Of a DNA stretch of 35,197 nucleotides, positions 12,065 through 33,580 are shown piece after piece. The notes beneath the pieces were generated by a model. It had not been told where the DNA came from. It searched no databases and saw only the letters and a program-made list of their open reading frames with translations. How positions within the stretch are numbered: position 1 is the first letter of the stretch; each line of letters starts with the position of its first letter. The DNA lies in IMG/VR virus record IMGVR_UViG_3300013132_002068, positions 1 to 35,197 of that record; one strand, 5' to 3'. Source of the DNA: a virus. The position numbers were made by a program, and so were the translations under genes.

Positions 12065-12075
12065 GAGCATATTAA

Positions 12076-13305: not shown

Positions 13306-13311
13306 TCATAC

Positions 13312-15539: not shown

Positions 15540-15547
15540 ATAATCTG

Positions 15548-16927
15548 ATGTCATCAGAGATGTTTAAAGTTGTATATTCATGGTTGGGTCCTAAAGGACC
15601 GATATGGAATACAGAGGTCCCTAATTTATATTCACTAGTAAATGAAGCGGAAAAGGTTAAGCCAGAGACTTTTTTCTATTGGAGCGATCTATTATGGCAA
15701 AATGTTTTCAAAAATAAAAAAGAACAATGGTATTTATGGCCTAACAGCGAAATTACTAACGAGGACATATTTGTCTTTCCTTACTCTCTGCACTGGAGAA
15801 TTCCAGTGGAGAGATTTTTTATGGCAGGATCAGGAATAGTTGAGTTCAGTCAGATGTCAGGACACATCTTAGAACATGTAAGAAACGGTAAAGGTTTTAT
15901 TATAATTGAACTAGCGGTTGAAGCCTATATTGATGATAGAATTTTAACAAACATGCATCATTATTTTAATGGGTCGCTGCATTTACCATTAAATAAAATC
16001 ATATATCTCACTGGCTGCATGAATGCCAAACAAATTTATGATGACTGGTGCAAATATAAAAATATCCCAGATGATCCTCGACAAAGAATGCATGTAATAA
16101 CTTGGCCTAGTAGTCAAGGTATATTCAGCAGACAATATACTCAGAAACTTGTTACTGAGCCATTTTACGATGAAAATTATTACCCTGAAAAGTTATTTTT
16201 AAGTTTTAATAGAAGATTTAGAGAACACAGATTAAATTTATCCATAGCATTCAATAAACATAATTTATTAGAAAGGTCTTATTGGGCCCTTGGAAAAGTT
16301 GATCCAGAAAGTCCTAGACCCTTTTTAGAAAATGTTAACATAGGCGGTTATACTGAATTAGAATTAACCGATCAAGATGTTATGAATTTAAACAATAAAC
16401 TTCCTTTGGTTATTGACGGAGAAACAAACACCCAAAAAATGTGTGTAGATCCAGATATGGAAACAAGAAAATTCTATACAAATAGTTTACTAAGTTTAGT
16501 CACAGAAACTAACTTTAGGGAACCTAATGTTTCTCTCACAGAAAAAAGTTTTAAACCAATGAGAGAAAAACATCCATTTATAATAGTAGGTTCTCCTAAC
16601 TCATTGAGTTCATTGCGTGAATTAGGTTTTCAAACCTTCCATGAATTTTGGGATGAGGGTTACGATCAGACACAAAATCATTATAAACGCCTTGCTGCGA
16701 TTGTAAAACTATGTCAAGAAATAAGTCAATGGGATATACAAAAAACTTTAGAATTTAAACGTAAAGTTAAACCTATTATAGAACATAATTTTAAATTAAT
16801 ATTAGAAAGACCTGAATTAGGGGTAAGTCAAAAAATTGCTAAATATATCGTCGATCAGTTATTAATAACTGGTAAAATTAATCAACATACTGCTAATTTA
16901 ATGAAATTAAATAAGAGATTAACTTAA
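15548..16927 (+). CDS. GT-B-like putative glycosyltransferase (459 aa)
   Basis: A 459-aa protein. The C-terminal half has KLFLSFNRRFREHR (residues 215-228) and LVTETNFREPNVSLTEKSFKPM...PFIIVGSPNSLSSLRELGF (317-361). The 'S/T-E-K-x-x-K-P...PF-I-x-x-G' segment resembles the nucleotide-sugar-binding part of GT-B enzymes of the fucosyltransferase/exostosin kind, by memory only. The same landmarks occur in the minus-strand gene at 33756-34793, so the two are paralogues at opposite sides of the cluster. The N-terminal ~200 residues look like a separate Rossmann-like half. It starts 8 bases after radical SAM 6 and overlaps the epimerase start (TAATG). It is probably soluble, as no membrane segment is seen. 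Donor and acceptor are unknown. Confidence 0.5.
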   Translation: MSSEMFKVVYSWLGPKGPIWNTEVPNLYSLVNEAEKVKPETFFYWSDLLWQNVFKNKKEQWYLWPNSEITNEDIFVFPYSLHWRIPVERFFMAGSGIVEFSQMSGHILEHVRNGKGFIIIELAVEAYIDDRILTNMHHYFNGSLHLPLNKIIYLTGCMNAKQIYDDWCKYKNIPDDPRQRMHVITWPSSQGIFSRQYTQKLVTEPFYDENYYPEKLFLSFNRRFREHRLNLSIAFNKHNLLERSYWALGKVDPESPRPFLENVNIGGYTELELTDQDVMNLNNKLPLVIDGETNTQKMCVDPDMETRKFYTNSLLSLVTETNFREPNVSLTEKSFKPMREKHPFIIVGSPNSLSSLRELGFQTFHEFWDEGYDQTQNHYKRLAAIVKLCQEISQWDIQKTLEFKRKVKPIIEHNFKLILERPELGVSQKIAKYIVDQLLITGKINQHTANLMKLNKRLT

Positions 16928-17907
16928 TGAAAAACATTTTAGTATGCGGTGCCGGCGGTTTTATCGGTACATACTTAGTAGAAAGTCTTAAAAAGCAAGG
17001 TCATTATGTAATAGGAGCGGATTTAAAATTTCCGCTCTACAGCGAAACAGAATGTGACAAGTTTTACAAACTAGATTTGCGTGACTATCAAAATGTAAAA
17101 ACTATTTTTTTTAAGAATAGAATTGACGAGGTTTATCAACTCGCAGCCGATATGGGCGGTGCTGGATATATATTTACCGGTGAAAATGACGCTGACATTA
17201 TGCATAATAGCGCCACTATAAATTTGAATATATTAGATGTAATGGTAAAAAATCATGTTAAGAAAGTATTTTATAGTAGTAGTGCTTGCATGTATCCTGC
17301 ATATAATCAAACTGACCCAAACAATCCATTATTAACTGAAGAAAGCGCATATCCTGCCGATCCAGATAGTGAATATGGATGGGAAAAGTTGTTTAGTGAA
17401 AGATTATACCTAACATATGCACGTAATTATGGAATAGACGTAAGAGTAGCACGTTTTCATAATATATTTGGTCCTAGAGGTAGTTGGAATAACGGTAAAG
17501 AAAAAGCACCGGCAGCATTATGTCGCAAAGTTGCAATGGCTGAAGATAATGGTACAGTTGAAGTTTGGGGCCCGGGCATACAAACACGTAGTTTTTTATA
17601 TATTGATGAATGTATAGAAGGTATACATCGTATAATGGAGGGTGACTATCAAAAGCCTTTAAATTTAGGCAGCACATCAATGATCAGTATTAATGATCTA
17701 GTAAAGTTAATAGCAAGAATTTCTGGTAAAACAGTACATATTAAAAACATAGATGGTCCAATGGGTGTGATGGGACGTAATAGCGATAATACATTAATAA
17801 AAGAAAAAATTAATTGGGCTCCAGGAGAAGATTTAGAGGCCGGATTAATTAAAACTTATGCTTGGATCAAAGAACAAATAGACAAAAATATAAACGATGT
17901 AGAATGA
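16927..17907 (+). CDS. GDP-mannose 3,5-epimerase-like NAD-dependent sugar epimerase
   Basis: A 326-aa short-chain dehydrogenase-type protein. It has the NAD-binding GAGGFIG at residues 8-14, AADMGGAG at 73-80, SSSACMYP at 117-124, the catalytic pair Y150/K154 (YGWEK), then RFHNIFGPRGSWNNGKEKAPAA and QTRSFLYIDECIEG. These blocks, including the Cys after SSA (C121) and the Lys in EKAPAA (K193), match what I know of GDP-mannose 3,5-epimerases, which use Cys and Lys as the acid/base pair to make GDP-L-galactose or GDP-L-gulose. Length is normal for the family. It probably supplies an activated sugar to the neighbouring glycosyltransferases. A related C3/C5 epimerase on another GDP-sugar is possible. 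Confidence 0.82.
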   Translation: MKNILVCGAGGFIGTYLVESLKKQGHYVIGADLKFPLYSETECDKFYKLDLRDYQNVKTIFFKNRIDEVYQLAADMGGAGYIFTGENDADIMHNSATINLNILDVMVKNHVKKVFYSSSACMYPAYNQTDPNNPLLTEESAYPADPDSEYGWEKLFSERLYLTYARNYGIDVRVARFHNIFGPRGSWNNGKEKAPAALCRKVAMAEDNGTVEVWGPGIQTRSFLYIDECIEGIHRIMEGDYQKPLNLGSTSMISINDLVKLIARISGKTVHIKNIDGPMGVMGRNSDNTLIKEKINWAPGEDLEAGLIKTYAWIKEQIDKNINDVE

Positions 17908-17908
17908 C

Positions 17909-18784
17909 ATGTCTAAAAAATATATTATAGGTCTAGGCTGTAGTTGGACCCAGGGTGAAGGCGGATATCCTGACGAAATATGGCAGAGATATAACGGCAG
18001 AGTTCAATTACGTGGGGCAGATGACTATCATTTACGCAAATACGAACATGAAAATAGTTGGGTAAATGTATTAGCCAGAGATCATTTTCCAGATCATATA
18101 CCCGTTAATTTGGGGGTGCGCGGAGTAGGTAATTTCGCAGCAGTAAATCAATTAAATTTTTGTAATAGAGTAGATTGGGAAAACGGTACAGGCATAATTG
18201 TTTTGATGATGTCTGGCTTTGAGCGTTTTGATGTATTTCAACAATACCCTAAACATAATAGACACCAAGATGATTTTTATAGTAATAATGAGTATGTTCA
18301 TTATAAATGGCGTACTGCATGGCCAATCAAAACCGATAAAGGGGATTCGTCATTTTGGAGTGTTTATGCGACAGAATTGTGGTCTGAACAATTTGTTGCA
18401 TCATGGCAAATAATAAACTTATTAAATTTACAGACGTTTGCCAAGGCACATAATTTTAAAATAGTATTAGCAAATGCGTTTAATCAATCCCCGCGCGGTG
18501 TCTACGAATATCTAAAAGAAAATACAGGCTCCATGGCTTATAAGTTTGATTGGAGTACTTATGTTCATAATAAAGTTGATTATGAGTCATTTATGCAAAA
18601 ATTAGTTGATTTAGATGGCATAATTCCAAAAGAAAAATGGGGCGGATATTTTAATGTTTATAAAGAACGATCATGGCCATCAACTTATTTGACAAATTGT
18701 GAAGGGGCACATCCTACAATATTAGGATATAAAGTTATAGCAAGCGAGTTAGCCCAGTTCATAAATAGTCAAGGCTATGTCTAA
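17909..18784 (+). CDS. SGNH/GDSL hydrolase-like protein A
   Basis: A 291-aa protein. The N terminus reads KKYIIGLGCSWTQGEG, where the Ser fits block I of SGNH esterases. NLGVRGVGNFAAVN (about residues 70-83) fits the Gly block, and near the C terminus EGAHPTILGYKVIASELAQFI fits the His block, although the usual D-x-x-H reads E-G-A-H. The Asn block is less clear (VLMMSGFERFD). Family members remove or transfer acyl groups on sugars and lipids. Position between the epimerase and a B12-type radical SAM protein suggests glycan esterification or de-esterification; this is inference. Its end overlaps the next start by 8 bases. Two more SGNH-like proteins follow in the cluster. Confidence 0.6.
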   Translation: MSKKYIIGLGCSWTQGEGGYPDEIWQRYNGRVQLRGADDYHLRKYEHENSWVNVLARDHFPDHIPVNLGVRGVGNFAAVNQLNFCNRVDWENGTGIIVLMMSGFERFDVFQQYPKHNRHQDDFYSNNEYVHYKWRTAWPIKTDKGDSSFWSVYATELWSEQFVASWQIINLLNLQTFAKAHNFKIVLANAFNQSPRGVYEYLKENTGSMAYKFDWSTYVHNKVDYESFMQKLVDLDGIIPKEKWGGYFNVYKERSWPSTYLTNCEGAHPTILGYKVIASELAQFINSQGYV

Positions 18785-20708
18785 AAAAATTGTTAGTTTC
18801 GTAAATCCAAATTTTCAGCAAGGACCTAAAGAATATAATGCATATTATTTGCCTTATAGTCCCGGAGTCCTTTGGAGTTATGTAAATCAATTTGAGCCGA
18901 TTAAAAAGAATTTTGAACTAGGTGAGTTTATATGGCGTCGTGATACTATTGAAGAGGCTATTGAAAAACTTAAAGATAGTGACGTTGTAGGATTTAGCAC
19001 ATATATTTGGAATCGTAGTTATAACAACGTTCTTGCTAGAGAACTTAAAAAAAGAAATAAAGATATATTAATTTTCTTTGGTGGTCCTGAACCTCCCATA
19101 ACAGATAAGAACTTTTTTAAAAAGTTTCCCTATATTGATCTAGCAGTTAAGCAAGAAGGTGAAATTACTTTCAAAAAGATTTTAGAAACCGTTATGGTTA
19201 AGGGAGCAAGTTTTAAGGCTATACCTGGATTAATTATTAATGATGACGGCAAAGTATTTGATACTGGCCCCGGAGTCAGGATAGACAAACTAGACCAAAT
19301 ACCCAGTCCATATCTATCAGGTGTGTTTGATGACCTAATGAAAAAACATCCCGAGATACGTTGGAACGCTACACTAGAAACAAATCGTGGTTGTCCTTAT
19401 GCTTGTACATTCTGTGACTGGGGAAGTCTCACATATAATAAAGTAAAGAAGTTTGATTTACAACGAGTCTTTGATGAACTAGAATGGATAGGAAGTCATG
19501 GATTAGATTTTATAAGTTTGACTGATGCTAACTTTGGTATATTTGCTGAACGTGATAGTATGATTGCTGACAAACTAATTGAAGTACAAAAAAGATATGG
19601 TAACCCTAAGGCATATACAATTGCTTGGGCAAAGAATCAAAAGCAAGAAGTTGTTGATATTGTACGTAAATTAATATTTGAAGGCGGAAGCAAGATGGGG
19701 CTTAATCTGTCTGTGCAAAGCATGGATGATAATGTACTTGATATTATTAAGCGCAAAAATCTTGAAATGAATAAGATTGAAGAAGTATTTGAACTCTGTG
19801 AAAAGTACAGTATCCCATTATATACAGAATTAATATTAGGATTACCCGGAGAAGATTTACGTACTTGGAAAGATAACTTCTACAAATTGTTTAAAGCCGG
19901 TAATCATACCGGTATTACAGTTTATCAAGCGCAGTTACTTGAAAATGCTGAAATGAATTTAACGCAAAAAGAAGAGTTTAGATTAGAAGGTAAGATCGTA
20001 TACGATTATCTAGTCGGTACATATAATGAGCATGAATTAAAAGAAGGTATTGAAGTTGTAGTATCTACAAAAGACATGCCCAGACAGGATATGGTCAAAG
20101 CACAAGTTTGGAGTTGGTTTATTAATACATTTCATGTCAACGGTATTACTAATTATATTAGTAGAGTGCTTTACAAACTTAACAAATTAGAATATAATGA
20201 ATTTTATGAAGCCCTGTTTCACTATATACAAAAAGACGAGTGGTTTAATAAAGAAATTGAAAGAATATCAGTACATTATAATAAATGGACCGTTGAGGGC
20301 AGAATAGATCACACCCCTATCCAAGGCATGGAAATACATGGCTGGAACTTAATACATAGCACAGTGATTAATCTTCATAGCGAATATAAACATAAACATG
20401 TATTTGATTTAATTGATAGATTTTTAATTGAACATTTCAACATTGATCCAGAACTTAGAGAAGAATTAATTGAATTTCAAAAGTTATACTTAATTGATTA
20501 TAATAGAATAGGCAGTTATCCTTTAATTAAATCATTAAAATATGATATTCCTTCTTATGTTCAGGATAATAGTGTATTAACTAAACAAGAGTGCGCATAC
20601 GAATTTGACTTTCCAGAAGATAAAACACAGTCTTTACAACGTTTTTGTGAACAAATATTTTTTGCGAGACGCAGAAATTTTGGTAAATCATGGATAACTA
20701 AAAAATGA
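18777..20708 (+). CDS. B12-binding-domain radical SAM protein A
   Basis: A 643-aa protein. Residues 1-180 look like a cobalamin-binding-type Rossmann domain: DSDVVGFSTYIWNRSYNNVLARELKKR, ILIFFGGPEPP at 97-107 and DLAVKQEGE at 121-129. I see no D-x-H-x-x-G motif, so any cobalamin may bind without a lower His ligand. The radical SAM motif is C206, C210 and C213 (RGCPYACTFC). SLTDANFGIFAERD, NLSVQSMDDNVLDIIKR and ELILGLPGED are typical of the barrel in this class. The C-terminal ~230 residues are rich in aromatic and charged residues and not recognised. Known relatives include methyltransferases and ring-forming enzymes; the substrate here is unknown. Start and stop overlap both SGNH-like neighbours. 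Confidence 0.8.
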   Translation: MSKKIVSFVNPNFQQGPKEYNAYYLPYSPGVLWSYVNQFEPIKKNFELGEFIWRRDTIEEAIEKLKDSDVVGFSTYIWNRSYNNVLARELKKRNKDILIFFGGPEPPITDKNFFKKFPYIDLAVKQEGEITFKKILETVMVKGASFKAIPGLIINDDGKVFDTGPGVRIDKLDQIPSPYLSGVFDDLMKKHPEIRWNATLETNRGCPYACTFCDWGSLTYNKVKKFDLQRVFDELEWIGSHGLDFISLTDANFGIFAERDSMIADKLIEVQKRYGNPKAYTIAWAKNQKQEVVDIVRKLIFEGGSKMGLNLSVQSMDDNVLDIIKRKNLEMNKIEEVFELCEKYSIPLYTELILGLPGEDLRTWKDNFYKLFKAGNHTGITVYQAQLLENAEMNLTQKEEFRLEGKIVYDYLVGTYNEHELKEGIEVVVSTKDMPRQDMVKAQVWSWFINTFHVNGITNYISRVLYKLNKLEYNEFYEALFHYIQKDEWFNKEIERISVHYNKWTVEGRIDHTPIQGMEIHGWNLIHSTVINLHSEYKHKHVFDLIDRFLIEHFNIDPELREELIEFQKLYLIDYNRIGSYPLIKSLKYDIPSYVQDNSVLTKQECAYEFDFPEDKTQSLQRFCEQIFFARRRNFGKSWITKK

Positions 20709-21352
20709 TATTATTATCTAATGGTTGTAGTTGGACATATGGGTCAGGGCTAGATGAAGGTATAAGAGAGGAATCTGTATATTCAGCACTGATTGCTAGA
20801 ACTCTAAACCGTAAACTTGTTAATTTAAGTAAAGGGTGTGGTAGTAACCAAAGAATTTTACGCACAACGTTTGAATGGATATCAAAACAAAATAAATCTA
20901 TTTGGGATAATACACTAGCAATTATTCAATGGACTGATGAATCAAGATACGAATACTATGTTCCTAATCTAAAAAAAGACTACACTGATAATTGGGCAAG
21001 AGTTAAAGTTGATGTTGTCCTTAGTCCTAATGAGTTAGATTATATTGATAAAGCAACTGAAAGAGCGAATTTTAGGTTAGAAACATTTACTCATCAAGAA
21101 GCAGCATATCATATGCTTACCTATTCTTCTGCTATGGCATACATCTTTAAATCATATGGAATTAAATATTATTTTTGGTCGCATATATTTAATTTTAATT
21201 ACTTTAATCGTAAAGTCAATGATTTTATGCAAAAAAACCAATCATGGATAAAAGTACTGGGTGAGTATGATCGAATAGGTAACCATGATCCACATCCTAG
21301 TGTGACCGGGCATAAAGAAATTGCTGAACAGATATTGAACTTCGTTAAATAA
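20705..21352 (+). CDS. SGNH/GDSL hydrolase-like protein B
   Basis: A 215-aa protein, close to the usual single-domain SGNH length. Block I is MILLSNGCSWTYGSGLDEG, with Ser in G-C-S-W-T. Block II is NLSKGCGSNQRILRTT. Block III is probably LAIIQWTDESRYEYY. The C-terminal NHDPHPSVTGHKEIAEQIL fits the His block, with Asp two residues before His instead of three. It shares G-C-S-W-T and Q/x-x-G-x-G with the 17909 protein, so the two are related. It overlaps the upstream radical SAM gene by 4 bases (ATGA). The expected activity is acyl-ester chemistry; the target is unknown. Confidence 0.6.
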   Translation: MILLSNGCSWTYGSGLDEGIREESVYSALIARTLNRKLVNLSKGCGSNQRILRTTFEWISKQNKSIWDNTLAIIQWTDESRYEYYVPNLKKDYTDNWARVKVDVVLSPNELDYIDKATERANFRLETFTHQEAAYHMLTYSSAMAYIFKSYGIKYYFWSHIFNFNYFNRKVNDFMQKNQSWIKVLGEYDRIGNHDPHPSVTGHKEIAEQILNFVK

Positions 21353-21360
21353 GATATCAT

Positions 21361-21366
21361 AGGAGA
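21361..21366 (+). promoter_or_regulatory. Ribosome site AGGAGA deciding a TTG start
   Basis: AGGAGA lies 7 bases before the TTG at 21374. The nearest in-frame ATG is 30 codons later and has no comparable site. This fixes the start of the large B12-type radical SAM gene at TTG. Confidence 0.6.
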
Positions 21367-21373
21367 TAAGTTT

Positions 21374-23680
21374 TTGGAGTTCACGTTAAGAAGTCTAGCG
21401 GTTGATGAACTTAAACCGCATGAAAGACCAACAGAAGATATCGCTGATGTACGCCATCGTAATATGATGGAAGCGATAGCACCTTATGCCAAACCAACCG
21501 TACAAAAGAATCTAACTCCTGTATATGTAGATTATAAAACACGCAATACTAAACTTGTATTGGTCTTATGTCCTGAGTGGAGCCCTTATATGCCTCCTTT
21601 CAGTTTAGCAAGATTAAGTGGCATAGCAAAAACTGCAGGCTATGAAACTTGGCTGATTGATTTAAACGTTAAAGCATTTACTGCTTTCCGTGATGACTGG
21701 TGGCCTAGCAAAAAAATACCTTTTAGATTATGGGATCCTAGTGCTAGTTGGCGTTGGTTAGGTAATAACTATAAAGAATTCGTACATCCATTACTTGAGC
21801 CATTGCTTAATGCAGAAATAGATAACATACTTGCTAAAGAGCCAGATGTGGTCGGCTTTAGTATATATTACATCAGTGAAGAACCCGCCAAGTGGATGTG
21901 TCAAGAAATTAAACGCAGAGCACCTCACGTTAAAATTGCTGTGGGTGGACCAAACGTACACAAGAGCTGGTTTAAAGTTGAACCTTATTATGACTATGTT
22001 GTTATCGGTGAGGGTGAACTCAATCTATTACGTGTATTAGAAGATGTTGAAAATAAAGTTGAACGTACAGAACCTTGGATATTAAATCAGCCCGAAGATG
22101 AAAGACTAAACATAAATGGTTTACCGATGCCTGACTATGAAAGTTTAGATTTCAGTTTATATGAATTACCCAATGGTGTAAACACAGAAATCAGTCGCGG
22201 CTGTACAGCAAAATGTACATTCTGTGAAGAAACACACTTTTGGAAATATCGTCAAAGACAGAGCGTTGACCTTATCGGCGAAATTGAATGGCTTTACTAT
22301 AATAAAGGCACAGATGTCATTTGGTTTATTGATAGTCTTGTTAATGGTAATCTAAAAGAATTACGTGCTTTCTGTAAAGCAGTAGCAGCGAAAGGACTTA
22401 AGATTAACTGGACTGGGTATAGTCGCTGTGACGGTCGTATGGATCTTGAGTATTTTAAAGACCTAAGAGCAGGTGGTTGTATTATGTTAAACTACGGCTG
22501 CGAAAGTGGTAGCCAGAAAGTATTAGATGATATGGCTAAGGGCGTAACTATCCAAGAAATGGAAGATAACTTTAGACATGGCAAAGAAGTGGGTGTATGG
22601 GCCGCTACGAATTGGATCGTAGGATTCCCCACAGAAGATTATCAAGACTTTGCTGATACCATGGCATTTATATGGCGTATGCGTAATATGAATATCAATA
22701 ACGCCGGTCTAGGCGTAGGATATGGTCTTGGACCAGAAACTATTGTAGGACAGAACCCGCATAAATTTAATGTGTCTTATCACAAATATCAGGGCTTTTG
22801 GATATGTAATGACTTTACAAAAGGCGGAAGCCATGTCATGGCACGTGTTAAATTTATACATATGTGGCTTGATATGTTTAAAGGCTTTACTGAAGTTCCA
22901 ATTGGTTATCCGGTACGTATTAATTTAGCCAAGGAGCATTATAAAATAAATTTTGATGATCCTACATACTTAAGAGAAATTGAGTATGAAAAATTTGATT
23001 ATAATATTATTCCTCCAGTAGATCCCAACAATCCTTATGCTAATAGTTTAGTTAATGAGCCTTGGGTTTTCTTTCGTATGCTATGGAAAATCCGCGGAGG
23101 ATTTTCAGCAATAGTTCATTTTAATCCTGAAATTGATAAACGAGAATTCGGTGATAGTTACGGGGCATGTCTTTATACCGGGGTTTATAAATTTGTAATT
23201 AATAAAGAAGGTAAATGGCATGCAGATTTTTACACAAAATTTGATCAAATTGATAATCCTTTAGATGATAGAGAAAGACCGCCGGCTGGTCGTAAGGGGC
23301 CTTTCTATGCCCAAGATTATAGCCGTTGGCAAAGTAATACTGTAAAACGTGCTAGAAAATTAGCAAAACCAACATGGAGTGATGAAGAAGGACGCAGCGG
23401 TCATGACTTTTGGGAATTATTAGAAGAAGAAAGAAGATTAAATGAGACTGTTGACTGGAGTTTTGAACATCATTATCAAGGAAGTGGCCACTGGGGTAAC
23501 TACCAAGATTATGAAGTCGGAGTATCAAATACATCAACCACTGCAATTCCAGAAAAGGAAGCAATGACTGATAAAGAATCTACATCAATTAGTATTAACG
23601 TTTCAGATATACGTAAAAAACAAGATTTCCCGCATGCTTTAATGAAATTAAAAGTTCCACAATTGCCGAGCAAGTCCTAA
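21374..23680 (+). CDS. B12-binding-domain radical SAM protein B
   Basis: A 768-aa protein. The start is a TTG at 21374 with AGGAGA (21361-21366) 7 bases before it; the first in-frame ATG would lose 30 residues. Residues ~60-225 form a cobalamin-binding-type domain: PPFSLARLSGIAKTAGYE, PDVVGFSIYYISEEPA, IAVGGPNV and YVVIGEGE. The radical SAM motif is C277, C281 and C284 (RGCTAKCTFC), followed by DVIWFIDSLVNGN, NYGCESGSQKVLDDM and NWIVGFPTEDYQDF, all typical of this class. The last ~200 residues are polar, Trp- and Tyr-rich and not recognised. The reaction could be a methylation or rearrangement; this cannot be told from sequence. It is the largest radical SAM protein here. Confidence 0.82.
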   Translation: MEFTLRSLAVDELKPHERPTEDIADVRHRNMMEAIAPYAKPTVQKNLTPVYVDYKTRNTKLVLVLCPEWSPYMPPFSLARLSGIAKTAGYETWLIDLNVKAFTAFRDDWWPSKKIPFRLWDPSASWRWLGNNYKEFVHPLLEPLLNAEIDNILAKEPDVVGFSIYYISEEPAKWMCQEIKRRAPHVKIAVGGPNVHKSWFKVEPYYDYVVIGEGELNLLRVLEDVENKVERTEPWILNQPEDERLNINGLPMPDYESLDFSLYELPNGVNTEISRGCTAKCTFCEETHFWKYRQRQSVDLIGEIEWLYYNKGTDVIWFIDSLVNGNLKELRAFCKAVAAKGLKINWTGYSRCDGRMDLEYFKDLRAGGCIMLNYGCESGSQKVLDDMAKGVTIQEMEDNFRHGKEVGVWAATNWIVGFPTEDYQDFADTMAFIWRMRNMNINNAGLGVGYGLGPETIVGQNPHKFNVSYHKYQGFWICNDFTKGGSHVMARVKFIHMWLDMFKGFTEVPIGYPVRINLAKEHYKINFDDPTYLREIEYEKFDYNIIPPVDPNNPYANSLVNEPWVFFRMLWKIRGGFSAIVHFNPEIDKREFGDSYGACLYTGVYKFVINKEGKWHADFYTKFDQIDNPLDDRERPPAGRKGPFYAQDYSRWQSNTVKRARKLAKPTWSDEEGRSGHDFWELLEEERRLNETVDWSFEHHYQGSGHWGNYQDYEVGVSNTSTTAIPEKEAMTDKESTSISINVSDIRKKQDFPHALMKLKVPQLPSKS

Positions 23681-24438
23681 TGGAAAAACAAAAGATTTGT
23701 CTAGTCGCAGGAGACAGCCATAGTTCAGGATCTGAAATAGACGGCACCGAAGACAGCGCCTATAATAGATCAATGTCATTTGGCAATCAATTAGGATCAC
23801 TAATCGGTGCAGAAAAGATTATTAATATTGCTGTAGGCGGTAGTGCTAATACCGGTATATCAAGAGCAATTATGCGCTGGTTCAAAGACCATTACGATCC
23901 TAATCTTATGAAAGTTTTTGTATGTGTGGGTTGGACTGAAAATGTTAGATTAGAAGTCCCTGCATTAGCACAGGCAATGGATTATTATAGATCCAATACA
24001 ACTTCTGATTGGTTTGATTATTCTGTACATTCTTTTTATAGAGTCAACTTAGGTTGGGAAGGACTGCAACCTGAAGAGAAAGAGGTACACAAATACTTCC
24101 ATAAGTTCATAGTTGAACAAACACATTTCATTGAAATAATGACAATTAAGAACGTATTGGAATTACAATATTTTTTAAAAATGCATGATATTGATTATGT
24201 GATGTGCAATACCATGCATATGTTTACATTGCCTGATAGACACCTCGACATATATTCGGATTTTTTAGATAAAAATAGATACTTTAACTGGGATAATAAT
24301 GAAGAATCTTTCTTTTGGAAGTATAGAAATGCAGGGTATGGTAATTCTAAAGCTAAATACTGGCATCATAATGAAGAACCTCACAGGCTTCAAGCAGAAA
24401 GACTTTATAAATTTATAGGAGAGAAATCATGTTTCTAA
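23680..24438 (+). CDS. SGNH/GDSL hydrolase-like protein C
   Basis: A 252-aa protein. The N terminus reads ICLVAGDSHSSGSE, with G-D-S-H as a classic block I including Ser. NIAVGGSANTGISRAIMR fits the Gly block, and VFVCVGWTENVRLE fits the position of the Asn block. The C terminus has NEEPHRLQAERLYKFI as the His block candidate (E-E-P-H in place of D-x-x-H). It is closer to canonical GDSL than the other two but has the same layout. It is coupled to the radical SAM gene by TAATG, and its last 10 bases overlap the next small gene. Probable esterase or acyltransferase; substrate unknown. Confidence 0.6.
   Translation: MEKQKICLVAGDSHSSGSEIDGTEDSAYNRSMSFGNQLGSLIGAEKIINIAVGGSANTGISRAIMRWFKDHYDPNLMKVFVCVGWTENVRLEVPALAQAMDYYRSNTTSDWFDYSVHSFYRVNLGWEGLQPEEKEVHKYFHKFIVEQTHFIEIMTIKNVLELQYFLKMHDIDYVMCNTMHMFTLPDRHLDIYSDFLDKNRYFNWDNNEESFFWKYRNAGYGNSKAKYWHHNEEPHRLQAERLYKFIGEKSCF
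24417..24423 (+). promoter_or_regulatory. Strong ribosome site AGGAGAG for the 32-aa gene
   Basis: AGGAGAG sits 5 bases before the ATG at 24429, within the 3' end of the SGNH-like gene. It is among the best ribosome sites in the window and is the main evidence that the tiny ORF is translated. Confidence 0.55.
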
Positions 24439-24530: not shown

Positions 24531-26012
24531 ATGATGTACGTAGGATTAAGTTGCGGCTTCCATGACGCGGGGCTTAGTATTGTTAGCGACACAGGGGATT
24601 TACTATTTGCCGCACATAGCGAAAGATATAGTAAAAAGAAGCATGATGCTAACCTATGTGAGGGCATCATCAAAGAAGCATGGACATATTTAGTCAACAG
24701 TAATTTTGAACTCCATTATTATGAAAAACCATTTTTAAAAGCAATCCGCCAATTTCGTGCAGGACAACCTATTGGTCCATTAAGTGTGAAGCAGATTGTA
24801 GGTCCTGAACTTTATGATATGTTTGGTGATAGACCAATTAAGACGCATGTTCATCATAAGACACACGCAGCAGCGGGCTTTCAAACAAGTCCATTTGAAG
24901 ATGCTACTATAGTTGTAATAGATGCTATAGGTGAGATGGATTGCATCACCATATGGGATGCATGGTATGATGATAAAGGCTATGCAAAATATAAGAAACT
25001 ATGGAGCAAGAAATATCCCAACAGTATAGGCATGTTCTATAGTGCTATGACACAGCGTGTAGGCTTGAAGCCCATGGATGAAGAATATATACTCATGGGC
25101 ATGGCTGCATATGGTAAGCCAAGTCATGCACAACGCATGGCAAGCAACTTACTTGATAATATTGAAAATGTAGATTTTAAATTAAATTTACATACAGGAT
25201 TAGAAGATAACTTTTTGAGTAAAGCAGATGACATGGACATCGCAGCAAGCGCACAACTTGTTTGTGAAACACTTATTGAAAAAGTAATGATGAGAGCAAA
25301 ACGTATAGGTCATAGCAAGAACCTTGTGTACGGCGGCGGGGTAGCATTAAATTGTCTTGCTAATAGACTGCTTGGTAAGTACTTTCATGATATGTGGATT
25401 ATGCCTAATCCCGGAGATGCAGGTAATAGTCTAGGTGCAGCAGCACTTGGTTTTGGCAAAAAAATCAATTGGCGTGATGCATTCTTGGGCACACATATTA
25501 AAGGACCATATCCAGTTGTAGAAGTTATTAAAGAATTAACAAAGAAAAAGATGGTAGGAGTTGCCAGCGGTAGAGCAGAGTTCGGGCCTCGCGCATTAGG
25601 CAATCGTAGTTTGTTAGCAGACCCACGAGGACCCGAGATAAAAGATAAAGTCAATGAAATTAAACGTAGACAAAAATTTAGACCATTTGCACCAGTCATT
25701 CTTGAGGAGCATGTACATCAGTATTTCACTATGCCTCGTGGCTGGCGTGATAGTAGGTATATGCAAGTCATCGCTACTTGCAAGCATCCTGACTTATATC
25801 CTGCTATCGTTCATCACGACGGCACTAGTCGTATACAGACAGTTCCTAAAGATGGATCTGGGATACGACAGTTATTAGAAGCATGGTATGCTAAGACAGG
25901 TTGTCCTATGTTACTAAACACAAGTTTAAACATACGCGGTGAGCCTATGGTCAATGATCGTAGTGATGCTGATCGTTTTGAAAAACTTTATAACCTAAAA
26001 GTCGTATCATAA
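24531..26012 (+). CDS. NodU/TobZ-type O-carbamoyltransferase
   Basis: A 493-aa protein matching the full plan of the carbamoyltransferase family. It has an N-terminal ASKHA-like start (YVGLSCGFHDAGLSIV), the metal-binding HHKTHAAAGF at residues 108-117, IDAIGEMD, LMGMAAYGKP, and the YGGGVALNCLANR and NPGDAGNSLGAAA blocks of the Kae1-like half. The C-terminal domain follows with EFGPRALGNRSLLADPR, RPFAPVILEE and LLNTSLNIRGEP. Family members use carbamoyl phosphate and ATP to carbamoylate a hydroxyl group, usually of a sugar, antibiotic or Nod factor. Two Met codons open the frame (24531 and 24534), and either may be used. In this operon a sugar or glycan acceptor is the likely target; a nucleotide or protein hydroxyl cannot be excluded. 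Confidence 0.87.
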   Translation: MMYVGLSCGFHDAGLSIVSDTGDLLFAAHSERYSKKKHDANLCEGIIKEAWTYLVNSNFELHYYEKPFLKAIRQFRAGQPIGPLSVKQIVGPELYDMFGDRPIKTHVHHKTHAAAGFQTSPFEDATIVVIDAIGEMDCITIWDAWYDDKGYAKYKKLWSKKYPNSIGMFYSAMTQRVGLKPMDEEYILMGMAAYGKPSHAQRMASNLLDNIENVDFKLNLHTGLEDNFLSKADDMDIAASAQLVCETLIEKVMMRAKRIGHSKNLVYGGGVALNCLANRLLGKYFHDMWIMPNPGDAGNSLGAAALGFGKKINWRDAFLGTHIKGPYPVVEVIKELTKKKMVGVASGRAEFGPRALGNRSLLADPRGPEIKDKVNEIKRRQKFRPFAPVILEEHVHQYFTMPRGWRDSRYMQVIATCKHPDLYPAIVHHDGTSRIQTVPKDGSGIRQLLEAWYAKTGCPMLLNTSLNIRGEPMVNDRSDADRFEKLYNLKVVS

Positions 26013-26021
26013 GTAAACATT

Positions 26022-29000
26022 ATGCTGAGAGACGTTTTTTATTATGGCATAAAGCCAAATGTCCATCCACGCGAACAATTCGCAAACAACTTAAATGATG
26101 CGCGTAAAAAATGTACTACCGAGCATTTTTGGATAGTCAACGAATATTGCGACTACACTAATTTTGATTGGGACTTTGATTTTGACTTTTTACCCGATGA
26201 AGATGTATGGGCTCAAGATCATAATAACGTATGGCCTAGCCAGCATCAAAAAGATAGCGGTACACGGCTATGTTCAAAAATGGAAAGCGACATCATCATT
26301 TATAGGACTGATGTTAATCCAGTAAAAAGAAAAAACGAAAAAAATAGTCATTGGAAAATCTATAGTCCTATAGATGAAAAGAAGTTTGATTTTAGTTGGC
26401 ATCCAGATCCAACTGATCCTCTGTTTATATTTGTCTGGGGTAACAAATATATTAATGCTGTATTTGAACCTACGGTAGAATATCACATGCCTGGCGCTAC
26501 AGAAAAGAAATACATGTTCCAACATGCACCTGTTTTGCCTCAATGGGAACGTTGGCATATACTTAAAGAGGTTGATAAAACAACATTTGACTTCAGTTGG
26601 AGACCTGATCCACGTGAACCTGCATACATTTATACTTGGGGTAATAAGTATGAACCAGCGGAAATCACACCTACATTGATGTATCATATGCCTACTGCTA
26701 CAGAGGTCAAATACATGACAGAACGTGTTGATGTATTACCGCAGTGGGATCGTTGGATAGAACATACACCGGTAGATAAAAAGAAAAGCACTAAGAATGG
26801 CTTTGACTTCAGTTGGAGACCTGATCCACGTGAACCTGCGTTTAATTACGTATGGGGTAATAAGTTTGAAGATGCTGAGATGGTACCTACATTAGAGTAT
26901 CGCATGCCAGATGCAACACAAGTCAAATACATGACAGAACGTGTTGATGTATTACCACAATTGGATCGTTGGATAATACCTGATAACGTTGATAAAACAA
27001 CATTTGATTTCACTTGGAGACCAGATCCACGTGAGCCTGCATTAGTATATGAGTTCGGAACACAATGGCAAAAGACTGGAGGTCCTAAATACGTTATGCC
27101 TGACGCAACTGAAGTAAAATATATAGATGTTCAGTGTGCGAAAGTATTACCTAATCCAAGTAAAGATAATTGGATAATACCTGACAATATTGATGTCACA
27201 TCATTTGATTTTAGTTGGCACCCAGATAGTACAGACGAACCTTACGTTTACCAATTTGGCACGCAACATCAAAAGACAGGCGGTCCTAAATATGTTGATA
27301 ACAACGCAACGCAGATAAAATATATTGATGTCACCAATGCGAAAGCATTACCTAATAAAGATAGATGGATAGTTCCTGATAACTTAGATGTCTCTGAATT
27401 TGATTTTAGTTGGCATCCCGATGACACAGACCCGCCATTTATTTACGATGCAGGTACACAATGGCAAAAGACAGGTGGCCCTAGATACATTGTTGAAGGT
27501 GCTACACAACTAAAATATCTAGAAAATAAAAAGGCAAAAGCATTACCTAATAAAGAAAATTGGCATATACCAGTTTATATTGATGAGGCTGCATGGGACT
27601 TTAGTTGGCATCCAGACATAACAGAACCTGCTTATATATATTATTTCCCAACTCAATGGGCTTTATCAGGTGGACCTGTATATACTGTACCCGGTGGTGC
27701 TGAAAACAAATTCTTAGAAGGTCCCGTCGCTAAAGCAGTTATCAATATGGATAATTGGGAAATACCTGACAATATTCATAGAGACAGTTTTGATTTTAGT
27801 TGGCATCCATTTGCTCAAGACGATCCTTGTATATATCAGATAGGCACACAATGGCAAAAGACAGGCGGTCCTAGATATATCACACCCGGCACTAATGAAT
27901 TAAGTCCTGTCAAATATATTGACAGACGTATTATTAAATCAAAGATACTCCCGGATAAAAGTAATTTTAAATTCTTACATCCAATTGTTGAAGAAGAGTT
28001 TGATTTTAGTTGGCATCCTGATAGTACAGAAGAACCCTACACTTATATTTTTGGTAATCAACATTGGGGTGCTGAAAAAATGCATACTATTGAGTATCAT
28101 GTAGAGGGAGCAACTCAATACAAATATGTTTATAATCTAAAAGCAAAACTTAAGCCCAATAGAGAAAACTGGCAAATAAAAATCAATATTGATGAATCTA
28201 CTTGGGATTTTAGTTGGATGCCTGACCCAGGTGAACCTGCATATATCTATGTCTTCGGCAACCAGTGGCATAATGCTGAAATAGAATCAACTGTTGAATA
28301 TCATGTTCCGGGTGCTACCGAATACAAATACATGAATGATATCAAGGCAACTGTATTGCCTGATATGACTAACTGGAAGTTCAATTATAAGATAGATAAA
28401 AAGAAATTTGATTTTAGTTGGCGTCCTGATCCAGGATCGCCCCCATATATCTATGTGTTCGGTAGCAACTTGTATCCAGCAGAAGAAATGTCAACCGTTG
28501 AATATCACGTACCTGGTGCTACAGATTATAAGTACATATCTGAACTTGTTGCACAACTTGCAGAAGATAAGTCTAACTGGGTGATACCTGACAATGTTGA
28601 TGTAACTGATTTTGATTTTACTTGGCATCCTAACCCTAAAGATCCAGCATATATTTACTATGCAGGTACACAATGGCAAAAGACAGGCGGACCTAAGTAT
28701 GTAGTGGAAGGTGCCACTGAGATTAAGTATCTGGAATGTAAGAAAGTTAAGGCTTTACCAGACAAAACAAACTGGGTATTACCAACTAATGTTGATGTTG
28801 CGGATTTTGATTTCAGTTGGCATCCAGATGAAACTGAACCTCCCTACGTTTATCAGTTTGGTACACAATGGGCATTGAGCGGCGGTCCTAAATACGTCAT
28901 GCCCGATGCTACTGAAGTTAAGTACATGGAAAATCCAGTAGCCAAAGCAATACCTGATAAGACTAACTGGATAATACCTAAGAACATAGATGCAAATAGT

Positions 29001-32000
29001 TTTGACTTCAGTTGGCATCCTTATGTAGAAGATCAACCGTATATCTATGTGTTCGGTACACAGTGGCAAAAGACTGGTGGACCTAGATATGTCACCCCGG
29101 GCAGTACTGAGATGAGCCCTGTCAAATATATTGATAGACGTATCATCAAATCAAAAAGATTACCTGATAAAACCAACTGGTCAATTCCTGATAATATTGA
29201 TCCCAATAGTGTAGATTATAGTTGGCACCCAGATGATACCGAACAGCCTTACATATATGAGTTCAGAACACAGTGGCATAATCGCGGTGGACCTAAATAC
29301 ATAGTACCTGATGCTACAGTGATGAAATATAGTAGTGACATTAAAGGTAACCTGATCAGAGAAAGAAAGAACTGGGAAGTACTTACTCCTATTATTGAAA
29401 GTAAATTTGATTTTACTTGGCACCCACACCCCGATGATCCACCCTATATTTACGTGTTCGGTAATAATTTATATCCTGCTGAAGAGATGGAAACAGTTAG
29501 ATATGTTGTTGAGGGTGCAGTACAAGTCAAATACGTCAATGACATAGTTGCGCAGTTAGCACCAGACAGGTCTAATTGGGAAGTACCTAAAGATGTTGAT
29601 GTAAGTGAATTTGACTTTAGTTGGAGACCACATCCTAAAGCACCGCCATATATCTATGAATTTGGTACACAGTGGCAAAAGACAGGTGGTCCTAGATATA
29701 TTGTTGAAGGTGCTAAAGAAGTTAATTACATATCAGGTAGTAAAGCAATTTACAAACCAAAGATTAAAAGCAAATACTGGGAAATACCTAAGAGTTTAGA
29801 TATAAAAGAATTTGACTTTAGCTGGCACCCAGACAGCACAGATAAGCCATACATTTTTCAATTTGGTACACAGTGGGCGTTGAGCGGTGGACCTCGCTTT
29901 GTTGTACCTGGCGCGACGGAAGTAAAATACATTGAAAAACCAGTAGCCAAAATGCGTGGTAGCAAGCGTAACTGGGAGATACCCGATGATGTGGATGTAA
30001 GTGAATTTGACTTTAGTTGGCACCCATATGAAGATGATAAGCCATATATCTATCAGTTTGGTACACAATGGCAAAAGACAGGCGGTCCTAGATATATTAC
30101 TCCTGGTAGTGATGAGATGAGTGCTGTCAAATATATTGACAGACGTATTTTAAAAGCAAAAAAATTACCTAACAAAAAGAACTTTACTATACTTAATAAT
30201 AACATAGTAGAAGATTTTGATTATAGTTGGCATCCGGATGATACAGATCCGCCTTATATATACATTTTCGGCAATGAAAAATATAATGCTGAAATAATGC
30301 CAACAATACAATATACTGTTGAGGGCGCGCAAACTAAAAAATATATCTCTGATGTCAAAGCAAAACTAGGCGTCAATATGTCTAACTGGAAAATTCCTAG
30401 TAACGTAGACACAAAAGATTTTGACTTTAGTTGGGTACCTGATCCTTTGAGTCCTCCTTATATCTATGAGTTTGCAACTATATGGAATGACAGGGGAGGC
30501 CCGATTTATACAGTACCTAACGCAACAGAAAAAAAATATATTACAGATATCAAAGCAAAACTATTACCAAATAGAGATAATTGGAATATTATCATACCTA
30601 TTGAAGAAAATAAATTTGACTTTAGCTGGATGCCGCATCCAGATAGTCCTCCTTACAGTTATGTATTCGGTAATCAATGGAATAGAGCAGAAAAAGAATC
30701 TACTGTAGAATATCGTGTACCCGGCGCTACAGAATACAAGTATGTTCACGACATTATAGCAACCACTCTACCGACTAAGGATAATTGGAAAATTAATATT
30801 CCAGTTGATAAATCATTTGACTTTAGTTGGAGACCGGATCCAAACGACCCGCCCTATATATATGTGTTCGGAAATCAATGGAACAAAGCAGAAAAAGAAT
30901 CAACAGTAGAATATACTATTCCAGGCGCTACTGATAAAAAATATATACAGGATATTATTGCTAATGTAGCAGAAAATCTTAATTACTGGAAAATACCTGC
31001 TGATATTGATGTTAGTGATTTTGACTTTAGTTGGAGGCCGGATAGCGGCGCACCGCCCTATATATATCAATTTGGTACACTAGAAAATGATAACGATGGC
31101 CCAATCTATCATACTCCAGAAAATAAAGGTGAAATTGTTAGGGTACGACGAGTGTATAAAAAGTATAGCGCGAATAAAACTTCGGTGGGTAAATATTTCA
31201 TAACTACAACCTTACAGGATCTTGTAGAACAACACCCAGATGAACTATTCTGGGCTTTACGTGAGAATATTGATTATACGAACTTTGATTTTGATTGGTC
31301 TCCGAACATCGAGCAAGCACGATACGTGCATGTATTTGGTAGTCCGGAATCAGAAATAACACAGACATACTTTGTATCAGGTCCTATGTGGAAAGACGGA
31401 TATAGAGATTTTAATTTTATTGAGCAAGATAAAAAGGCAAGTGAAGAATATCTTGCCGAGTTGTTTGTGCAACCAGATATATTCTTTGTAGATCGTGGCA
31501 ATCCCGAAACACAACAACGCTTTGAACAACTCAAGGCACGATTTACAAATATAAGTAAGACACGTTTCTTGAATAGTTGGGTTGATACCATCAATCGTTG
31601 CATTAACAGATCCAATACAGAACTATGTTGGATATTGAATAGTGAATTAGACTATACTGACTTTGACTTTAAGTATTACCCCAACCCTTGGCAGATGAAG
31701 ATGGTTCAAGTATTCGGAACACAATGGAGTCATTGGGGAACTACATTCATGGTCAATCGTGAAACATTCTCAGAAGATACCAAATACATTAAAATCATAG
31801 AACACTTGAGTAATCTAAACTTTGTTAAAGATCGCAGAGCCAGAGCAACAAATAATTTATATGATATCTATGTAATTAACCACGGTAATACAGAACTAAA
31901 CCAAGTGGTAGATTCTATTAAACTTGCTGCAGGAGACAAATCTGTAAATGTAGTTGATTATGATAAAACATATCTTCAGACTATAAAGAACATAGTAGAT

Positions 32001-33194
32001 AACATCAATCCTAGAAAAGAACACTATATTTGGATTTGTAGCAGTATTTGTAACTATAGTAATTTTGATTTCACTTATGTTTGTGATCCATTCGCTAGAG
32101 AAAATTTACATGTATTTCCTAGTGATATGCAGAAGTTCGGAGACACTTTCTTTATAAATGTAAACCATACTAAGAAAGTAATAAGCGAATTAGAAGTTTT
32201 ACAACAATATAATAAAGTAAACTTTAATAATACAGTTAAAACAAGACGCTTACCTGCACCTGTGGTCAAGGTTAACACTGATACTCATGTAGGTAGTATA
32301 GACACAAATTTTGATTTCCCCTATGCTATATTCACAACCGAAGAATTCAAAGCAAATGATATTGAACCTTTGAACTTATGGCAAGATGATACAAAAGAAT
32401 TATTAGTTACCAGTACGGGTGCATCAAGAATAATTGTTCCTAAAGAAGCGAAAAATTATATCAAAAATGAACTATATGATTATCCATATATAAAAACAGC
32501 AAGTAAGTTATTATCAAGTAAACCGCTTGACATCGTATTTCTCAGCAACGGTGAAAAGAATGCGGAAGAAAACTATAAGCATTTACTTGCTGTCACCGAA
32601 GGACTTAAGAATAGAATTGTTAGAGTAGACGGTGTGAATGGTCGTGTTGACGCATATCATGCTGCTGTCAAAGCAAGCGAGACTCCCTGGACGTTCACAG
32701 TATTTGCTAAGTTAAAAGTCAATGGTAAGTTTGACTGGGGTTGGCAACCAGACAGATTGCAAGTACCTAAGCATTACATTTTCCATGCTAAGAATCCTGT
32801 TAACGGATTAGAGTATGGTCACCAAGGCATGATTGCGTATAATAAGCAACTAGTATTAAACAACTTTGGTAGTGGTTTAGACTTTACACTTGACGATCCA
32901 CATGAAACTGTAGAGTTGGTGTCAGGTACTGCTAACTTTAATACAGATGCATATAGCACTTGGCGTACAGCCTTCCGTGAAGTGATTAAATTAAAAAGTG
33001 ACTACACAGAGATAAGCCAAGAACGATTAAATATATGGCTGACAGAAGCAAAAGGCAAGTTTGCCAAAGATTGTTTACAAGGCGCAAAGGATGCTGTAGA
33101 GTATTATGAACAAGTAAGCGGTGACATGGATCAACTCAAACTCAGTTATGAATGGAGTTGGTTAAAAGACTTCTACAATAGGAAATACAAATAA
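26022..33194 (+). CDS. Giant repeat protein (2390 aa): array of GT-A-like core modules, apparently DxD-less
   Basis: One intact frame. Residues 1-60 form a divergent N-terminal module (DVFYYG..., FWIVNEYCDY, NFDWDFDF). Residues ~110-1700 hold 24 tandem units averaging ~67 aa. The consensus is N-W-x-I-P-x-N-V/I-D, FDFSW-x-P-D-x-x-D-P-P-YIY-x-FG-x-Q-W, then either KTGGP or AE-x-x-T-V-E-Y, then P-G-A-T-E-x-KY and A-K-x-L-P-x-K. Further divergent copies have their FDF at residues 1755, 1881 and 2015. Residues 2169-2390 form a domain like the 7220-8164 glycosyltransferase, with a last degenerate copy at 2237 and F-A-K where DGD is expected. No signal peptide or membrane segment is seen. It lies between the carbamoyltransferase and the AdoMet decarboxylase-like gene (TAATG overlap). 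Possible roles are a lectin-like surface scaffold, a substrate of the cluster enzymes or a host-interaction protein; the role is unknown. Confidence 0.75.
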   Translation: MLRDVFYYGIKPNVHPREQFANNLNDARKKCTTEHFWIVNEYCDYTNFDWDFDFDFLPDEDVWAQDHNNVWPSQHQKDSGTRLCSKMESDIIIYRTDVNPVKRKNEKNSHWKIYSPIDEKKFDFSWHPDPTDPLFIFVWGNKYINAVFEPTVEYHMPGATEKKYMFQHAPVLPQWERWHILKEVDKTTFDFSWRPDPREPAYIYTWGNKYEPAEITPTLMYHMPTATEVKYMTERVDVLPQWDRWIEHTPVDKKKSTKNGFDFSWRPDPREPAFNYVWGNKFEDAEMVPTLEYRMPDATQVKYMTERVDVLPQLDRWIIPDNVDKTTFDFTWRPDPREPALVYEFGTQWQKTGGPKYVMPDATEVKYIDVQCAKVLPNPSKDNWIIPDNIDVTSFDFSWHPDSTDEPYVYQFGTQHQKTGGPKYVDNNATQIKYIDVTNAKALPNKDRWIVPDNLDVSEFDFSWHPDDTDPPFIYDAGTQWQKTGGPRYIVEGATQLKYLENKKAKALPNKENWHIPVYIDEAAWDFSWHPDITEPAYIYYFPTQWALSGGPVYTVPGGAENKFLEGPVAKAVINMDNWEIPDNIHRDSFDFSWHPFAQDDPCIYQIGTQWQKTGGPRYITPGTNELSPVKYIDRRIIKSKILPDKSNFKFLHPIVEEEFDFSWHPDSTEEPYTYIFGNQHWGAEKMHTIEYHVEGATQYKYVYNLKAKLKPNRENWQIKINIDESTWDFSWMPDPGEPAYIYVFGNQWHNAEIESTVEYHVPGATEYKYMNDIKATVLPDMTNWKFNYKIDKKKFDFSWRPDPGSPPYIYVFGSNLYPAEEMSTVEYHVPGATDYKYISELVAQLAEDKSNWVIPDNVDVTDFDFTWHPNPKDPAYIYYAGTQWQKTGGPKYVVEGATEIKYLECKKVKALPDKTNWVLPTNVDVADFDFSWHPDETEPPYVYQFGTQWALSGGPKYVMPDATEVKYMENPVAKAIPDKTNWIIPKNIDANSFDFSWHPYVEDQPYIYVFGTQWQKTGGPRYVTPGSTEMSPVKYIDRRIIKSKRLPDKTNWSIPDNIDPNSVDYSWHPDDTEQPYIYEFRTQWHNRGGPKYIVPDATVMKYSSDIKGNLIRERKNWEVLTPIIESKFDFTWHPHPDDPPYIYVFGNNLYPAEEMETVRYVVEGAVQVKYVNDIVAQLAPDRSNWEVPKDVDVSEFDFSWRPHPKAPPYIYEFGTQWQKTGGPRYIVEGAKEVNYISGSKAIYKPKIKSKYWEIPKSLDIKEFDFSWHPDSTDKPYIFQFGTQWALSGGPRFVVPGATEVKYIEKPVAKMRGSKRNWEIPDDVDVSEFDFSWHPYEDDKPYIYQFGTQWQKTGGPRYITPGSDEMSAVKYIDRRILKAKKLPNKKNFTILNNNIVEDFDYSWHPDDTDPPYIYIFGNEKYNAEIMPTIQYTVEGAQTKKYISDVKAKLGVNMSNWKIPSNVDTKDFDFSWVPDPLSPPYIYEFATIWNDRGGPIYTVPNATEKKYITDIKAKLLPNRDNWNIIIPIEENKFDFSWMPHPDSPPYSYVFGNQWNRAEKESTVEYRVPGATEYKYVHDIIATTLPTKDNWKINIPVDKSFDFSWRPDPNDPPYIYVFGNQWNKAEKESTVEYTIPGATDKKYIQDIIANVAENLNYWKIPADIDVSDFDFSWRPDSGAPPYIYQFGTLENDNDGPIYHTPENKGEIVRVRRVYKKYSANKTSVGKYFITTTLQDLVEQHPDELFWALRENIDYTNFDFDWSPNIEQARYVHVFGSPESEITQTYFVSGPMWKDGYRDFNFIEQDKKASEEYLAELFVQPDIFFVDRGNPETQQRFEQLKARFTNISKTRFLNSWVDTINRCINRSNTELCWILNSELDYTDFDFKYYPNPWQMKMVQVFGTQWSHWGTTFMVNRETFSEDTKYIKIIEHLSNLNFVKDRRARATNNLYDIYVINHGNTELNQVVDSIKLAAGDKSVNVVDYDKTYLQTIKNIVDNINPRKEHYIWICSSICNYSNFDFTYVCDPFARENLHVFPSDMQKFGDTFFINVNHTKKVISELEVLQQYNKVNFNNTVKTRRLPAPVVKVNTDTHVGSIDTNFDFPYAIFTTEEFKANDIEPLNLWQDDTKELLVTSTGASRIIVPKEAKNYIKNELYDYPYIKTASKLLSSKPLDIVFLSNGEKNAEENYKHLLAVTEGLKNRIVRVDGVNGRVDAYHAAVKASETPWTFTVFAKLKVNGKFDWGWQPDRLQVPKHYIFHAKNPVNGLEYGHQGMIAYNKQLVLNNFGSGLDFTLDDPHETVELVSGTANFNTDAYSTWRTAFREVIKLKSDYTEISQERLNIWLTEAKGKFAKDCLQGAKDAVEYYEQVSGDMDQLKLSYEWSWLKDFYNRKYK
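26349..31122 (+). repeat. 24 tandem in-frame repeats (~200 bp each) within the giant gene
   Basis: The units fall into two types: a 'TQW-x-K-T/S-GGP' type and a 'GNQW-x-x-AE-x-x-T-V-E-Y' type. FDF cores run from residue 122 (base 26385) to residue 1667 (base 31020), which gives 23 spacings averaging 67.2 aa. Unit length varies (about 64-72 aa, with insertions such as SPVKYIDRR). Copies share short identical DNA words such as ACAATGGCAAAAGACAGG but differ at many silent positions, so they are not recent identical duplications. One unit, near base 29215, has VDYSW instead of FDFSW. Confidence 0.9.
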
Positions 33195-33572: not shown

Positions 33573-33580
33573 TATAAATA
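33573..33580 (+). promoter_or_regulatory. Exact T4-late-type motif TATAAATA before the structured RNA region
   Basis: TATAAATA is the exact T4 late consensus and the best match in the window. It lies just after the AdoMet decarboxylase-like stop codon, and no plus-strand protein gene begins within the next 1.2 kb. If used, it would make a transcript covering the structured region at 33590-33755 and antisense to the 33756-34793 gene. Confidence 0.4.

Follow-up and report, generated by a model that had tools for sequence, protein, structure and literature searches.

The DNA analysed here, hereafter the window, is a 35,197-nt stretch from a 35-kb virus record. On its plus strand, an ORF at 26022..33194 encodes, according to the ORF list and its translation, a 2390-residue giant repeat protein, for which whole-protein queries find ~130 related contigs. 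The array gene, as we call it, is the last of a glycan cluster whose radical-SAM, nucleotide-sugar epimerase, glycosyltransferase (GT)-like, and SGNH-like genes lie at 8164..24438 (+); the GT-like and SGNH labels, at 15548 and 17909, are sequence readings. Five consecutive radical-SAM paralogues, at least one of them with a SPASM domain, fill 8164-14586, a sixth radical-SAM gene is located at 14568, and B12-binding radical-SAM proteins are encoded at 18777 and 21374. A weak Asp/Arg β-hydroxylase-like domain is seen at L004:6613-8385, fused to a domain that also occurs in the window protein at 15548. At 7220..8164 (+) is the gene for a separate single-domain GT, P0002, and the nearest virion-like genes in the window lie ~22 kb upstream of the array gene.

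Directly upstream of the array gene is a NodU/Nol-like carbamoyltransferase gene (24531..26012, +; PHROG 1601, E 1e-94), which is its usual neighbor (60 loci) and which, in most related loci, is itself preceded by the 32-residue ORF MFLKKWWQKLKREIQYRKRLKELRKRDPFIYK (24429-24527, +, in the window). DegT-type aminotransferase and UDP-glucose dehydrogenase-like genes are found near the array in related loci. In 38 of 51 distinct loci, the array gene's start codon directly follows the sequence ATAAGTA (26005-26021 here), even where no carbamoyltransferase precedes the gene. The end of the array gene is overlapped by an S-adenosylmethionine decarboxylase-like gene (33194-33568). Just past the array operon, at 33573-33580 (+), is the only T4 late-promoter octamer TATAAATA in the window, against 8.3 expected; the idea of such a promoter upstream of the operon was dropped, as it applied to one group of loci only.

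An HMM made from the protein's own units locates 24 canonical copies in tandem in residues 110-1720 (26349..31181, +), each of 65-72 residues and scoring 73-107 bits, with weaker copies at residues 1744-1782, 1870-1924, and 2235-2265. Among 60 units, no variation is seen at D14 and W17, and conservation is ≥90% at W2, F13, P19, Y28, Y42, K51, and Y52. These positions fit the motif order W-I, FDF-S-W-x-P-D, YIY that had been proposed for the repeat. Matching stretches of the array are ~65-73% alike when it is compared with itself at the DNA level, and the best partners of certain units lie 5-6 or 11-12 units away, which argues that multi-unit blocks have been copied.

The array is preceded by a truncated GT-like N-terminal module (residues 1-109; 26022..26348, +; identified by hhalign), in which a mostly conserved NE[FY] stands at the DxD place. 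It is followed by M1 (residues 1725-1815; 31194..31466, +), which consists of a helix, the DxD-place strand, and the FDF segment and matches the unit at 98% in hhalign. Next come M2 (residues 1818-1945; 31473..31856, +) and M3 (residues 1946-2070; 31857..32231, +), assigned by hhalign, which share one layout: the Rossmann half from the N-terminus of a GT-A domain, then the FDF segment. The DxD place is occupied by NSE in M2 and by [CATV]S[ST] in most copies of M3. A linking segment that is conserved among relatives (residues 2071-2166; 32232..32519, +) leads to the GT-A-like C-terminal domain (residues 2167-2390; 32520..33191, +). The 24 units, the N-terminal module, M1-M3, and the C-terminal domain add up to 29, in agreement with the ~29 modules counted in the sequence-only reading of this DNA. 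That reading also took the larger flanking modules to be nearly complete, which is correct for the C-terminal domain; in the others, the C-terminal half of the enzyme is missing.

The C-terminal domain aligns with P0002 over 188 columns (hhalign 97.9%, E 4e-13), bearing out a match that had been claimed, and FAK-type residues are found opposite the invariant DGD (62/62). P0002 itself matches the intact GT family introduced below (hhalign 99.8%), has relatives in at least 542 contig stretches and, with its DxD intact, may be regarded as a putative active paralogue. Comparison of the C-terminal domain with a phage GT family that has an intact DxD gives 100% in hhalign over 221 columns (E 3.5e-44), and the DGD is directly opposite FAK (32703..32711, +), as the residue table also records. 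For a test of the fold, L073, a homologue with four units, was modeled (pLDDT 77, pTM 0.43). Residues 812-952 of the model match GT-A enzymes, with Z scores of 12.0 to B4GALNT1 and 11.3 to a Leptospira GT. With LH3, mimivirus R699, and CHSY3-CHPF, each of which has two GT-A domains, the alignment starts at residue 468 and covers ~250 residues rather than ~140, and this longer alignment suggests that the larger modules may be GT-A-like as well. The C-terminal domain is predicted, on the basis of the model and the alignments, to have kept the whole GT-A fold with FAK in place of DGD.

No D-x-D is present at the DxD place in any of 797 units, as had been asserted for the copies. The C-terminal domains mostly read FAK at this place, the remaining variants likewise being without D-x-D, while M2 reads NSE in 63 of 67 cases and the N-terminal module NE[FY]; indeed, all array-family members examined are without DxD. 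An NXN of the GT6 type was not found in the C-terminal domain, which has FAK, or in M2, which has NSE. The loss of the motif should not be taken as proof of inactivity because some GT-A enzymes are active without it. The Bacteroides ovatus GT6 enzyme is active with NXN in place of DXD (PMC3961637), and GT14, in which the DxD motif is absent and basic residues occur instead, is still active (PMC7185993). The latter paper also names an xED base, a G-loop, and a C-His among the features of GT-A enzymes. The earlier statement that none of the copies can bind donor is thus unproven.

These precedents bear on the possibility that the array protein is an active, metal-independent GT, in which the C-terminal domain would transfer sugar with a Lys standing in for the metal and the array would position the acceptor, its length setting the reach or the chain length. 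The C-terminal domain retains the full length of the DxD enzymes together with their conserved motifs on the nucleotide side (RVDG..G) and on the acceptor side (NGL.YG, TWR.AFRE), it has an invariant Lys at the DxD place, and the C-terminal domain of the sister family described below retains DxD. However, neither Asp is left, Phe and Lys being the usual substitutes, and nearly all array contigs encode a DxD enzyme separately (a P0002 relative at E < 1e-150 in 23 of 24), so that the activity need not be in the array protein. We consider an active array protein unlikely.

A search of the array contigs for relatives of P0002 returned a 528-residue protein with two tandem GT domains, both of which have DGD. 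The second domain reads KMVWIVDGDAVINKNFNFDYIVHPDKMDWVYVW, with its motifs in the same order as in the repeat unit (NWIIPDNIDVTSFDFSWHPD..YVYQFG), and when the two are anchored on the W, the PDN of the repeat unit aligns with the DGD of the enzyme. The family of this second domain, here the intact GT family, has DGD or DAD in 53 of 53 members. Two-domain tandem GTs with two intact D-x-D motifs are encoded at L316:726-2309 and L315:557-2095. In a sister family, 1-16 half-length modules of ~95-110 residues, all without DxD, are placed ahead of one intact DxD domain in most members; 175 viral contig stretches match this half-length-module array. The half-module table contains D-x-D in 33 of 342 entries, every one of them DGD or DAD; a module profile that matches the terminal intact domain as well would give this result.

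The half-length modules match the intact GT family (hhalign 97.6%) as well as the larger modules of the array protein (N-terminal module 94.6%, M1 94.8%, M3 85.8%; 86-96% across M1, M2, M3, and the N-terminal module). The larger modules in turn match the intact GT: M2 at 96.2% over 87 columns (E 2e-9), the N-terminal module with a score of 31.6 against a shuffle maximum of 19.8, M1 with 30.4 against 21.5, and M3 with 31.4 against 23.6, all four above 40 column shuffles and in a common register. Direct comparisons of M2, M3, and the N-terminal module with the C-terminal domain or P0002 do not rise above shuffles; a direct match of M2 to the C-terminal domain was dropped for this reason, and the link runs via the intact GT family. 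For the unit, the score with the half-length modules is 25.4 against a shuffle maximum of 17.1, and the unit HMM alone reaches up to 18.7 bits on half-length-module arrays, where the decoy maximum is 9.3. In L419, the stretch aligned with this HMM runs W, IP, FDFS, PD, HVFG. With the C-terminal domain, the unit scores 33.8, compared with maxima of 29.7 in 300 shuffles and 19.7 among 16 unrelated families.

Compared directly with the intact GT, the unit gives a weak score of 17.9 against a shuffle maximum of 16.2, and compared directly with P0002 it gives no match. Since the direct score only just exceeds shuffles, the derivation of the unit from a GT is transitive, each step being supported by profile alignment. 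With this qualification, the proposal that the repeat originates in a GT-A enzyme, namely in its DxD strand and the core that follows, is supported through a series that leads in one register from the intact enzyme to the half-length modules, the larger modules, and the unit.

The 65-residue unit keeps just the former DxD strand and the next β segment. A five-unit stretch (units 4-8; 26967..27962, +) was modeled with AF2 at a pLDDT of 95.8 and a pTM of 0.84; the model is almost all β, and the units are predicted to pack as a well-ordered array. Searched against the PDB, it has no Foldseek match (best E 8.1) and none by VIA-align, and in BFVD it retrieves, at low E-value, two uncharacterised proteins of uncultured phages only. 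The description of the short units as glycosyltransferase cores is not supported by this analysis: the Rossmann (nucleotide-binding) half is absent, and the suggested comparison of a predicted unit stretch with GT-A folds, once run, matched no GT or other solved fold. As to known tandem-repeat folds (β-propeller, Ig-like, BACON), the five-unit model has no PDB match and no Pfam family scores above cut-off, although a fold of one of these kinds may escape such searches. A compact repeat from a GT fragment, rather than a string of GT cores, is the best description of the array.

An array fold that matches no GT-A, a direct score to the intact GT that barely clears shuffles, and a unit that does not match P0002 could all be accommodated by an unrelated β repeat fused to a GT, with the common FDF-W-PD segment a product of local convergence. 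We regard this as very improbable. The intermediates are graded and share one register, the unit HMM matches half-length-module arrays above decoys, and the unit scores above both sets of controls with the C-terminal domain. The array protein is, very probably, what these comparisons make it: a tandem of GT-A fragments that ends in a GT-A-like domain without DxD, its array defined by the unit HMM, the five-unit model, and the direct matches in half-length-module arrays.

Viral contigs were searched with whole proteins, which matched 121 and 81 stretches, and with three units, which matched 267. Among 57 distinct complete proteins, the number of canonical units ranges from 1 to 33 (median 16), the N-terminal part measures 108-112 residues, and the C-terminal part is near-constant too. 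Pairs whose C-terminal parts are 91-92% identical have 33 vs 21 or 9 vs 4 units, and how far copy numbers differ does not follow from C-terminal similarity. Purifying selection acts on all parts: dN/dS is mostly 0.03-0.2, and the array usually lies somewhat above the ends. The low dN/dS and the variable unit counts together indicate a functional protein whose unit number is changing rapidly. A 777-residue variant (L314:1602-3935) combines the C-terminal domain with seven units and lacks M1-M3 as well as the N-terminal module.

Nine of 10 large contigs, which reach 364 kb, contain gp23, and the phages that carry the array are therefore T4-like. In tblastn searches of cultured phages (INPHARED), no match came up for the array protein or its C-terminus, for P0002, or for the tandem GT, single GT, and half-module array queries, and the carbamoyltransferase, used as a control, found 139 records. 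No member was found in GTDB genomes scanned with the family alignment. Pfam and PHROGs return nothing usable for the array protein and P0002, and PDB sequence searches with the single protein and with profiles return no match.

The genomic setting bears on what the protein may do. Of 20 contigs with a P0002-type enzyme, there are 14 in which the C-terminal part of the array protein also has a close match over its full length, and in some phages sister arrays sit between tail-fiber and sheath or neck genes. This last observation, the rapid change in copy number between conserved ends, and the high confidence with which an ordered array is predicted would also suit a virion stalk or fiber, in which the array forms a rigid shaft of variable length and the N-terminal module and the GT-like C-terminal domain serve as anchor and glycan-binding tip. 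Tandem BACON repeats in crAssphage offer a precedent (PMC6949934). Yet both ends are highly conserved, whereas receptor-binding tips usually diversify, and the closest constant neighbors are sugar enzymes; a virion component is in our view improbable.

From the glycan neighbors, the co-occurrence with P0002, and the position of sister arrays by tail genes, we infer a role as a scaffold in making or placing a phage glycan. In line with the support from profile chains and graded homologues, a phage GT would have been duplicated in tandem, and the N-terminal copies would have lost the DxD and their own C-terminal half. In the array lineage, the Rossmann half would have been lost too, leaving the 65-residue β unit, which was then multiplied to 1-33 copies. 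The array protein itself would transfer no sugar and would act as a scaffold of variable length with two invariant ends, holding an acceptor (a growing glycan or a virion protein), partnering P0002, or both. The glycan cluster would make a decorated glycan, probably placed on virion parts such as tail fibers. An enzyme thus appears to have become a scaffold of variable length, a reading based on copy numbers of 1-33, the missing DxD, and a sister family that still ends in an intact enzyme. As an overall explanation, we give a GT-A fragment array serving as a non-catalytic, length-variable scaffold for phage glycan machinery an even chance of being right; how such a protein would work is the more tentative part.

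If the reading is correct, these phages preserve a rare stepwise natural record of an enzyme domain reduced to a structural repeat, with the intermediates surviving in relatives. The five-unit array, predicted very confidently and without a solved match, would be well worth solving experimentally, and the findings also point to uncultured jumbo phages as owners of a large glycan system that is so far uncharacterised. More broadly, it is conceivable, though we would not yet call it probable, that large aquatic T4-like phages have a previously undescribed class of repeat proteins that arose by serial GT truncation and tandem amplification, with half-length arrays that end in an intact enzyme in one lineage, fully compacted 65-residue arrays and a dead terminal domain in another, and both serving as scaffolds of variable length for virion glycosylation.

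Full-text literature searches, whose scope was literature outside subscription journals, returned no description of such arrays. A 2025 paper on a large aquatic phage lineage lists, in the passages searched, several putative GT families among the core genes and no such array (PMC12619734). The half-length arrays found here in uncultured T4-like phages (for example L383, L347, and L466), for which Pfam, PHROGs, and the literature searched hold no name, resemble the array protein in their truncated GT modules without DxD, C-terminal GT, variable copies, and radical-SAM neighbors, but their modules are ~95-110 residues long with the helix retained and their terminal GT has DGD or DAD. E. coli K4 chondroitin polymerase, LH3, CHSY3-CHPF, and mimivirus R699 likewise have more than one GT-A-like domain per chain, aligned over residues 468-954 of the L073 model; they differ in having two domains and no fragment array. 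The BACON repeats of crAssphage are tandem repeated domains in a phage protein as well, but BACON is not GT-derived (PMC6949934 for the repeats), and the array protein has no BACON match in a Pfam scan. Bacterial GT6 (NXN) and GT14 enzymes share the GT-A fold and the loss of DxD, and differ in being active single-domain enzymes with other replacement residues than the FAK seen here. Finally, COSMC (C1GALT1C1) is a GT31/GT-A relative that has lost its motifs and acts as chaperone of its active paralogue, T-synthase (PMC7185993). Like the array protein, it has lost DxD and exists beside an active paralogue, the counterpart here being P0002, whose activity is putative; unlike the array protein, it is single-domain, eukaryotic, and without repeats. 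COSMC may thus be regarded as the closest functional analogy, one of likeness rather than of family membership.
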